A stretch of 64,000 nt of DNA, from positions 1-64,000 of the forward strand of contig VFKA01000005.1 in the NCBI GenBank assembly GCA_009885795.1, in the 5' to 3' direction. The position numbers and the translations under genes were made by a program. The notes beneath the pieces are model-generated. The model ran no database searches, was not told where the DNA came from, and was given only the letters and a program-made list of their open reading frames with translations. Positions within the stretch are counted from its first letter, which is position 1; each line of letters opens with the position of its first letter. The DNA is from Rhodospirillales bacterium. Lineage in GTDB: Bacteria; Pseudomonadota; Alphaproteobacteria; Dongiales; Dongiaceae. This document shows positions 26,266 to 29,512 of this stretch, piece after piece.

Positions 26266-27326
26266 GGCGATTTCCCTTCTTCGAATGTCAGGTCCGGCTC
26301 GCCAAGCGGCGCGAAGTAGCCCGCGACATCGCCCTCGCCCAGGTCGGACAAATGGCCCGGACTCCAGCGCGGCTGGCGATCCTTGTCGATGACGGCGGCG
26401 CGCACGCCTTCGAAAAAATCGCGCCCGCGCATGAAATGCTGGCTCAAGCGGTACTCCATGCGCAGCGCTTCGGCGAAATCGAGACGCGCGGCGCCGCGCA
26501 ATGCCGCGAGCGTCACCTTGAGGCTGGTCGGCGAAGCCCGGCGCATCGCCGCCGCCGCTTCCCCTGTCCAGGCGGATTCCTCGCCATCGAGCGCCGCCAG
26601 TATCGCCTCCACCGTGGGCGCGGCAAAACAACGATCGATGCCCTCTCGCCGCTCGGGCAATACGGCCGGGCCGTCCGGCGCCGCCGCATGGCGTTCGATG
26701 ATTGCGCTCACGTCCGCGGGTTCCGCCAGCGCCAGCGCCTCGACCAGGTCCGGCCAACGCCGGCTTTCCATCCCATGCGTCGCCAGGCCGGCAAGGAGCA
26801 TATCGGCGGCGCCGATGCGCGTTCCGGTGAGACCGAGATAGAAGCCGATCCGGCCCGGACAGCGCGGCAGGAACCAGGTCGCGCCGACATCGGTAAATAA
26901 TCCGATCTGGGCTTCCGGCATGGCGAACAGGCTGCGCTCGGTGGCGATGCGATGCGAGCCGTGCACGGATACGCCGACCCCGCCGCCCATGGCGATGCCG
27001 TCCATGAAGGCGATGAAGGGCTTGGGAAAGGTCTTGATACGGTAATTCAGCCGGTACTCGCGGGCGTAGAATCGTCGCACCAGATCGTCGCCCCGCCGCC
27101 CGGCCTCATGGAGCGCGCGAACGTCCCCGCCGGCGCAGAAGGCGCGCCCGCCCGCGCCCTCGATCGCCGCCACGCGCACACCGGGATCATCGGCCCATCC
27201 CGAGAGCCAGCCATCGAGCAGTTCGATCATCTCCAGGGTAAGAGCATTCAGCGCCGCCGGCCGGTCGAGCGTCACCAGCGCCAGGCCCCCTTCCCTCCGC
27301 ATCGAGATGCCGCGATCCGTGTTCAT
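26262..27326 (-). CDS. 3-hydroxyisobutyryl-CoA hydrolase (crotonase fold)
   Basis: A 354-residue HIBCH-type member of the enoyl-CoA hydratase superfamily. AFCAGGDVRALHEAGR, IAFMDGIAMGGGVGVSVHG (oxyanion hole) and FAMPEAQIGLFTDVGATWF (catalytic Glu and Asp) are diagnostic of the hydrolase branch. The C-terminal extension with EYRLSQHFMRGRDFFEGVRA (in part) is also typical. It hydrolyses 3-hydroxyisobutyryl-CoA in valine breakdown, immediately before MmsB. Confidence 0.94.
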   Translation of the reverse strand: MNTDRGISMRREGGLALVTLDRPAALNALTLEMIELLDGWLSGWADDPGVRVAAIEGAGGRAFCAGGDVRALHEAGRRGDDLVRRFYAREYRLNYRIKTFPKPFIAFMDGIAMGGGVGVSVHGSHRIATERSLFAMPEAQIGLFTDVGATWFLPRCPGRIGFYLGLTGTRIGAADMLLAGLATHGMESRRWPDLVEALALAEPADVSAIIERHAAAPDGPAVLPERREGIDRCFAAPTVEAILAALDGEESAWTGEAAAAMRRASPTSLKVTLAALRGAARLDFAEALRMEYRLSQHFMRGRDFFEGVRAAVIDKDRQPRWSPGHLSDLGEGDVAGYFAPLGEPDLTFEEGKSP

Positions 27327-27372
27327 GGGGACGCACTATAGTCTCGAAAAGTCGACACCGTTGAAATAGCGC

Positions 27373-27401
27373 TTGACAGACGACGCCGCTTTTGGTTTCT
27401 T
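27373..27401 (+). promoter_or_regulatory. Putative promoter of the osmC-metY operon
   Basis: A perfect -35 box TTGACA (27373-27378) is followed after 17 bases by a weak -10 TTTCTT (27396-27401). Transcription would then start a few bases before the SAM-II aptamer, as expected for this riboswitch. The -35 is convincing; the -10 is weak. Confidence 0.5.
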
Positions 27402-27405
27402 GCTC

Positions 27406-27460
27406 GTCGCGCCGATTTGAACACCAGATTGCGGGCGCGTTATAAATGCAGCTAAAGCGA
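27406..27460 (+). promoter_or_regulatory. SAM-II riboswitch (metA motif) upstream of osmC-metY
   Basis: Stem P1 is CGCGCC (27408-27413) with GGCGCG (27434-27439). The P1 loop begins GATTTGAACACC, and the sequence after P1 reads TTATAAATGCAGCTAAAG. This matches the SAM-II consensus, in which P1 is followed by TGATAAATG and then AGCTAAA. A pseudoknot pairs TTGC (27429-27432) with GCAG (27448-27451). SAM-II is an alphaproteobacterial S-adenosylmethionine sensor controlling methionine genes, and metY is downstream, so both sequence and context agree. Confidence 0.9.
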
Positions 27461-27469
27461 TGGGCCGGA

Positions 27470-27501
27470 CCGCCCAGCGAAAGCTGCGGCGGCTTTTTTT
27501 T
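27470..27501 (+). terminator. Intrinsic terminator downstream of the SAM-II aptamer
   Basis: The stem is CCGCCCAGC with GCTGcGGCGG around a GAAA tetraloop: nine pairs and one bulged C. C and eight T (27494-27501) follow. It begins about ten bases after the aptamer and well before osmC, so it is placed for attenuation. Whether SAM binding changes its folding cannot be told by eye, since no obvious antiterminator was worked out. Confidence 0.85.
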
Positions 27502-27639
27502 GTTTCGAGTGAAGGAGTTGAGAGGTCTGGTCCACCCAAGGACTCGCGGGAATTTGAGGGGCAGCTTGCACCGCGTCACCAATGCTAAAGCGTCACGGAA
27601 TTCGTGGCCCCGCCAACCTTAAGAGAGGAGGGCCACGCC

Positions 27640-28170
27640 ATGGCCAGCACGTTCCAATTTAAAGATGTGGTTCCGGCGTTCCAGACAGCGCTCAGGGAAA
27701 AGCCCGAGCAATCGCTCGCGACCTTCACCGCCACCTCGCGTCAGGTCTCCGGCCTGAAGAGCGAGGTCACCATCCGCGATTTCAAGATCATCGTCGACGA
27801 GCCGCCGTCGCTTGCGGGCACGGATGAGGGCCCGAACCCGGCCGAACTGGCGCTGGGCGCGCTCGCGAGCTGCCAGGAGATCACCTACCGGCTCTATGCC
27901 GACAAGCTCGGCATTCCGGTCGACTCCGTTGCCGTGAAGCTCGACGGCGATATCGATTTGCGCGGCTTCTTCGCGGTCGATGCCAAGGTGCGCCCCGGCT
28001 TCACCGAGATTCGCGGCACGGTCACGATCGAAAGTTCGGCCAGCGCCGCCGACATCGCGCGGCTGCGCTCCACCGTCGACGCCCATTGCCCGATCCTCGA
28101 CCTCTTGAGCCGGGCGACGCCGATCAAGCTCGAACTCGCCCATAAGACAACGAACCGGGCCGCGGCCTGA
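27640..28170 (+). CDS. OsmC-family protein in the SAM-II operon
   Basis: A 176-residue OsmC/Ohr-fold protein. The two redox-active cysteines of the family are present: Cys78 in [11 protein letters not shown] and Cys150 in [10 protein letters not shown]. It lacks a signal peptide, so it is cytoplasmic. The ATG at 27640 has AAGAGAGGAG ten bases upstream; an earlier in-frame ATG at 27604 precedes this site and is rejected. It lies between a SAM-II riboswitch and metY, 25 bases before the latter. This suggests a thiol or sulfide-related role rather than general organic peroxide defence, but the substrate is unknown. Confidence 0.88.
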
Positions 28171-28195: not shown

Positions 28196-29512
28196 ATGCC
28201 AACCAGTAGCAAGCATCCCGAGACGGTGGTCCTGCACGCCAGCCACCGCTTCGACGCCGGCACCGGCGCCGTCGCCGTGCCGATCTTCCAGACCACCTCC
28301 TACCAATTCGACAACACCCAGCGCGCCGCCAATCTGTTCGCGCTGAAGGAACTCGGCAACATCTACACGCGCATCATGAACCCGACCAATGCGGTACTCG
28401 AGGAGCGCATCGCCGCCCTCGAAGGCGGCGTGGCGGCGCTGGCCGTCTCGTCGGGCCAGGCGGCGTCGGCCATCGCGGTGCAGAACATCGCGCGGGCGGG
28501 CGACAACATCGTGAGCTCGACCGACCTCTATGGCGGCACCTGGAATCTCTTCGCCAACACGCTCAAGGACCAGGGCATCGAGGTGCGCTTCGTCGATCCG
28601 ACCGATCCGGAGAACTTCCGCCGGGCGACGGACGCCAAGACGCGGGCCTACTACGCCGAAACCCTGCCCAACCCGAAGCTGACCGTCTTCCCGATCAAGG
28701 AAGTGGCCGAGATCGGGCGCAAGCTCGGCGTGCCGCTGATCGTCGACAACACCGCGGCCCCGGTGCTGTGCAAGCCGCTGGAGCATGGCGCGGCCATCGT
28801 GGTGCACTCGACCACGAAATACATCGGCGGCCACGGCACCTCGATCGGCGGCATCATCGTCGATGGCGGCAACTTCGATTGGGAGAAGCACGCCGAGCGC
28901 TTCCCCGCGCTGAACACGCCGGACCCCAGCTATCACGGGGCGATCTGGGTTCAGGCGGTGAAACCCTTGGGGCCCATCGCCTACATCATCAAGGCCCGGG
29001 TCACGCTGTTGCGCGATCTGGGATCGGCCTTGAGCCCGTTCAACGCCTTCCTGTTCATCCAAGGGCTGGAGACCCTGCCGCTCAGAATCCGCGAGCATGT
29101 CAGGAACGCTCAAGCCGTGGCCACCTACTTGAAGAAGCACGCAGGCGTGGCCAAGGTCATCTACCCGGGCTTCTTCGACGGCGAGCAGAAGCGGCGCGCC
29201 GACTACTACCTGAAGGGCGGCTATGGCGGGCTCGTCGGCTTCGAGTTGAAGGGCGGCAAGGACGCGGGCCGCCGTTTCATCGACTCGCTGAAGCTCTTCT
29301 ATCACGTGGCCAACATCGGCGATGCGCGCAGCCTCGCCATCCACCCGGCGACGACCACGCACTCGCAACTCTCGCCCGAGGAGCAGCTCGCCACCGGAGT
29401 CTCCGACGGCTATGTGCGCCTCTCGGTCGGCATCGAGCACATCGACGACATCATCGCCGATCTCGACCAGGCGCTGAAGGCGTCCGACACCAGGGCGCTC
29501 GCCGCCGAATAG
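28196..29512 (+). CDS. metY: O-acetylhomoserine aminocarboxypropyltransferase (sulfhydrylase)
   Basis: A 438-residue PLP enzyme of the Cys/Met metabolism family, making homocysteine from O-acetylhomoserine and sulfide. The start [20 protein letters not shown] and [20 protein letters not shown] is the MetY hallmark. [17 protein letters not shown]-like [18 protein letters not shown] and the PLP lysine in [18 protein letters not shown] follow, ending [15 protein letters not shown]. It is longer than MetB/MetZ (about 390), as expected. Repression by SAM through the upstream riboswitch is expected, and a strong terminator follows. Confidence 0.96.

Follow-up and report, generated by a model that had tools for sequence, protein, structure and literature searches.

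The DNA analysed here (the window, 64,000 nucleotides of a single contig) belongs to a 3.46 Mb, 99.9% complete genome of the Dongiaceae and contains an operon that starts with a gene for an OsmC-like protein followed by a metY-type homocysteine synthase gene. The leader of this operon comprises, in 5' to 3' order, a SAM-II aptamer (aptamer 1), an intrinsic terminator, a second aptamer-like element (aptamer 2), the ribosome-binding site and the start codon. The features are as follows.

27373–27401, + strand: putative promoter, with the −35 box TTGACA (27373–27378) and a weak −10-like TTTCTT (27396–27401) located 7 nt upstream of P1 in aptamer 1
27408–27464, + strand: aptamer 1 (SAM-II)
27408–27413/27434–27439, + strand: aptamer 1, P1, CGCGCC/GGCGCG
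27415–27419, + strand: aptamer 1, third strand AUUUG
27424–27426/27461–27463, + strand: aptamer 1, short P2b, CCA/UGG
27429–27432/27451–27455, + strand: aptamer 1, P2, UUGC with GCUAA
27447–27488, + strand: predicted antiterminator UGCAGCU/AGCUGCG (arms 27447–27453/27482–27488), from the minimum-energy fold and covariation; additional pairs GC 27457–27458/GC 27477–27478 and UGGGC 27461–27465/GCCCA 27472–27476
27470–27501, + strand: intrinsic terminator CCGCCCAGC-GAAA-GCUGCGGCGG (hairpin 27470–27492), then T8 (27494–27501)
27530–27543, + strand: P0 hairpin GUCC/GGAC, directly 5' of aptamer 2
27545–27611, + strand: aptamer 2 (SAM-II variant), ending 28 nt before the start codon
27545–27549/27571–27575, + strand: aptamer 2, P1
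27552–27556, + strand: aptamer 2, third strand AUUUG
27558–27562/27607–27611, + strand: aptamer 2, P2b, GGGGC/GCCCC
27564–27569/27584–27591, + strand: aptamer 2, P2, GCUUGC/GCUAAAGC
27594–27597/27603–27606, + strand: aptamer 2, inserted hairpin P3
27603–27637, + strand: predicted alternative helix CGUGGCCC/GGGCCACG over the ribosome-binding site (arms 27603–27610/27630–27637)
27627–27631, + strand: Shine-Dalgarno sequence GGAGG; start codon at 27640
27640–28170, + strand: OsmC-like protein, 176 aa, operon gene 1 (Pfam PF02566, E 7e-21)
28196–29512, + strand: metY-type O-acetylhomoserine aminocarboxypropyltransferase (homocysteine synthase; TIGR01326, 617.6 bits, cut-off 495)

The putative promoter was read from its motifs; a promoter scan was uninformative. 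TTGACA, which begins at the first base of the stretch singled out in the first-pass annotation, fits a −35 box, and promoters directly 5' of P1 have been recorded for SAM-II elements (Corbino 2005). The annotation had recognised a SAM-II riboswitch by P1, the downstream TATAAATGCAGCTAAAG block (last base 27457) and a pseudoknot, and had noted a GAAA-capped hairpin with eight T after it; P1, the block and the hairpin were located where it had placed them. The covariance-model search agrees with this identity. In a permissive scan of 351 bases (27300–27650), positions 27399–27475(+) matched the Rfam SAM_alpha model (SAM-II, RF00521) over its full length with 35.1 bits (E 1.8e-6), 0.9 bit short of the curated gathering score of 36 bits, and in a whole-genome scan aptamer 1 was the best SAM_alpha match of its genome (E 4.3e-6). 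Since the score lies just below the curated cut-off, an Rfam scan of the whole window with curated cut-offs returned no match, and both aptamers surfaced only in the permissive local scan. Aptamer 1 shows the P1 stem and the P2 pseudoknot with an AUUUG/UUGC/GCUAAAG core. The pseudoknot had been proposed to pair TTGC with GCAG; according to the structure of SAM-V, which is nearly identical to that of SAM-II, UUGC instead pairs with those bases of GCUAAAG, GC and AA, that flank a SAM-contacting U (PMC6061858). A counterpart of aptamer 1 is present in nearly all other genomes of the family that were searched, with scores of about 28–41 bits against RF00521 at the homologous position. Nearly all of these genomes (loci L003–L026) also contain extra SAM-II elements (55–78 bits) before metA-like and metZ-like genes; the genome studied here has the tandem without these additional elements.

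Aptamer 2 was overlooked in the first-pass annotation. It gave a weaker SAM_alpha match in the same permissive scan (27536–27608, 20.8 bits, E 0.014), far below the gathering score of 36. Within 27524–27592, DNA searches revealed blocks up to about 90% identical in relatives. The consensus of these copies runs from P1 through AUUUGA, a variable P2b strand, GCUUGC, GCUAAAGCG and hairpin P3 to the 3' strand of P2b, so that P3 (usually CCACG/CGUGG) sits in the pseudoknot strand between P2 and P2b. P1 varies in step (CGCGG/CCGCG to CCCGG/CCGGG) and P2b covaries (z 5.0, 0 of 500 swaps; GGGAGC/GUUCCC, GGAGC/GCUCC, GGAUUC/GAAUUC); the corresponding swap score for P3 is inflated because its arms had been defined by pairing. 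On this comparative evidence, aptamer 2 is a SAM-II variant in which covariation supports P1, the P2 pseudoknot and P2b. The nucleotides given as SAM contacts in SAM-V (third-strand UUU, UUGC and the U-AAA of GCUAAAG) are found in both aptamers. Assignment of aptamer 2 to SAM-V itself was rejected, as RF01826 matched nothing in the scan of the locus, where E values up to 10 were allowed, nor in the scan of the relatives' loci, with E up to 0.5. By inspection, P0 also appears to be compensated in relatives (GCCGG/CCGGC, GCCC/GGGC).

Covariation with the ribosome-binding site points to an effect of aptamer 2 on translation. In relatives, the 3' arm of P3 covaries with the spacer (z 3.2, 0 of 500) and with the Shine-Dalgarno segment (z 2.5, 1 of 500), and a segment past the start codon, used as a control, showed no excess pairing with this arm. 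The core of aptamer 2 did not covary with the spacer/Shine-Dalgarno segment in relatives, nor did the P2b strand, whose pairing with the Shine-Dalgarno sequence had seemed attractive at first. The distance from the end of P3 to the first plausible start codon is 21–35 nt in 63 of 65 cases. Transcripts that escape termination would carry aptamer 2 at a near-fixed distance 5' of the start codon, and the 3' arm of P3 may pair alternately within P3 and with the ribosome-binding site. We infer that aptamer 2 responds to SAM; since the operon serves homocysteine synthesis and the two aptamers lie in the same leader, it, too, is most likely OFF with SAM. Folding does not decide which state of the P3 arm is favoured by SAM, and a literal reading, in which aptamer 2 with SAM bound has P3 formed and the ribosome-binding site free (ON), counts against the OFF assignment. 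Aptamer 2 might have the opposite sign or sense another ligand, which would make the leader incoherent or a band-pass device. In favour of this, P2b and P3 stabilised by SAM would keep the anti-ribosome-binding-site strand off the Shine-Dalgarno sequence, and an incoherent SAM-II element is known from S. meliloti (PMC9373788). However, low SAM would then yield a transcribed but untranslated mRNA of a biosynthetic operon, and the SAM contacts are conserved. Moreover, the covarying anti-ribosome-binding-site strand is the P3 arm and excludes the P2b strand, so that P2b can be in its SAM-bound state while the ribosome-binding site is sequestered. We consider this reading improbable, and assign the same low probability to its stronger form, in which aptamer 2 founds a distinct inserted-hairpin subclass of SAM-II, a SAM-ON or other-ligand translational switch, and the tandem passes only mid-range SAM.

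To follow the spread of the aptamer-2 type, a covariance model (R1) was built from 25 cores including the copy of the window. Of 386 genomes sampled from the Alphaproteobacteria, 93 gave a match with E up to 0.01, and about 69 (about 18% of the sample) gave a strong one (E < 1e-7). When two sets of 20 loci were scanned with RF00521, one such copy exceeded the cut-off (L167, 41.0 bits), the others among the matches listed scoring 22–34 bits. Aptamer 1 lies within 260 nt upstream in 42 of 127 distinct aptamer-2 copies, with representatives in Dongia, Kiloniellaceae, Tistlia, Thalassobaculum and others. Only 4 of the 127 copies are followed by a terminator-like hairpin in the next 90 nt. The genes downstream of aptamer-2-type copies are metY, metX, metZ, metN, metE, cysG and similar genes; outside the window they were named by eye, as the automatic search for the first gene took wrong frames at some loci. 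Solo copies (L101, L109, L116, L114, L171, L187, L192 and others) precede genes that resemble metX, metZ, metN, cysG, metA, metE and a gene for a sulfate-binding protein. Several solo copies are directly followed by a short leader ORF, with the main gene 100–250 nt later, and one genome (L160 = G389:C116; also G389:C92) contains six aptamer-2-type copies, two of which lie divergently on one contig with about 260 nt between them. The low score of aptamer 2 against RF00521 would also be expected if it were a decayed duplicate and aptamer 1 alone worked, as a single SAM-II transcription attenuator. Its conservation with covariation, the near-fixed distance to the start codon and the frequent solo occurrence before methionine and sulfur genes make this reading even less probable than a switch of opposite sign.

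Between the two aptamers, an intrinsic terminator is present in 39 of the 42 tandem leaders, at the same position as in the window. A crude scan for intrinsic terminators found 2 where 1.6 were expected, so that the terminator alone is not rarer than chance. From the end of T8 to the ATG at 27640 there are 138 nt, in line with the more than 130 bases noted earlier. A terminator in this place had been regarded as unusual on the premise that SAM-II elements act mostly on translation; the literature states the reverse, with mostly transcriptional elements (PMC6061858; PMC1273637), which makes a terminator after this SAM-II ordinary, and SAM-II plus terminator is a standard arrangement (PMC1273637, PMC9373788, PMC6061858). 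The beginning of the terminator 3' arm, AGCUGCG (27482–27488), is complementary to the core strand UGCAGCU of aptamer 1. When the core is free to pair, the fold of lowest energy is the antiterminator (−23.5 kcal/mol at 30 °C), which contains no terminator pairs, while with the core masked to mimic a SAM-bound pocket the terminator folds (−21.7 kcal/mol, 9 pairs). The antiterminator emerges once the fold begins at the core; the fold of 27402–27510 alone, which had been suggested as a check, contained none in RNAfold because P1 and the core are then free to mispair. Over 31 non-redundant tandem leaders, the core covaries with the 3' half of the terminator (z 4.9 over swapped pairings, 0 of 5000), compared to 1.8 s.d. 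for the 5' half as a control in the same test. Swap tests of this type leave common ancestry in, which makes them strong evidence but not absolute. The pairs are GCAGC with GCUGC in Dongiaceae, CCAGC with GCUGG at locus L107, and mostly GCGGC with GCCGC or GUCGC in Kiloniellaceae and others. The energy argument is not general, as in 26 of 39 relatives the terminator remains the minimum-energy fold although the core is free. In Dongia (L042–L049), an additional hairpin separates aptamer 1 from the terminator; the core/terminator pairing test is weak there, and the antiterminator must be built differently.

Together, the modelled folds and the covariation lend good support to transcriptional attenuation by SAM at aptamer 1, as the first-pass annotation had proposed; its picture of a single attenuator does not hold. 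Without SAM, the P2 strand UGCAGCU would pair with the terminator 3' arm and form the antiterminator, so that transcription continues; with SAM, P2 would form and keep this strand in the pocket, so that the terminator folds. Both SAM binding by aptamer 1 and the effect of SAM on termination are thus predicted from this model. That the terminator is constitutive and SAM-independent, or yields a short trans-acting riboswitch RNA like RA1 of S. meliloti metA, where SAM-II plus terminator has no predicted antiterminator (PMC9373788), is the least probable reading, as an antiterminator exists here and covaries with the core, and S. meliloti metZ is the closer match.

Hence we regard it as probable that the osmC-metY leader combines two SAM-II aptamers in tandem, with two levels of control, in which aptamer 1 would switch transcription OFF and aptamer 2 would act on translation, most likely also OFF with SAM. 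As in bi-mechanism tandems, a terminator follows aptamer 1, none follows aptamer 2, and aptamer 2 adjoins the ribosome-binding site. Counting against the two-level reading, the SAM-II domain is masked in a published SAM-II/SAM-V tandem (PMC11508383).

A two-level tandem SAM-II device is of an already known kind. With SAM-II (RF00521), including S. meliloti metZ with its SAM-dependent terminator, the leader shares the H-type pseudoknot core, the SAM-contact bases, a promoter close upstream, a terminator past the aptamer and a methionine gene downstream; it differs in that aptamer 1 is a 35-bit variant and aptamer 2 has a hairpin between P2 and P2b and a score below the cut-off. Tandem control, first of transcription and next of translation, has been described for SAM-II/SAM-V and for some of 44 SAM-II doublets (PMC9481103). 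The latter likewise have a terminator with the first aptamer and the second aptamer at the ribosome-binding site, whereas the second aptamer here is hairpin-inserted, a variant that the 44 examples may include. The SAM-II/SAM-V tandem of Pelagibacter bhmT has the same order and the same split between transcription and translation, but aptamer 2 of the present leader matches SAM-II (RF00521), has a GC-rich P2b of 4–7 bp and leaves the Shine-Dalgarno sequence outside P2b. SAM-V (RF01826) and aptamer 2 have the same core and contacts and both adjoin the ribosome-binding site; the hairpin of SAM-V lies between P1 and P2, that of aptamer 2 after P2. Within the incomplete literature covered, we found no description of the hairpin-inserted variant or its wide spread, which provisionally appear to be new.

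In a published comparative survey, SAM_alpha was confined to Rhizobiales and Rhodobacterales (PMC4239095). Our findings extend SAM-II control to alphaproteobacterial groups without any in that survey, such as Rhodospirillales, which we provisionally regard as new given the same incomplete coverage. Such leaders can be missed because both aptamers score under the default cut-off. As the variant is common among the sampled genomes and precedes methionine and sulfur genes, a new covariance model would bring in a regulon of considerable size. The tandem also offers a compact natural system for asking whether control becomes sharper when the same ligand is sensed at both levels.
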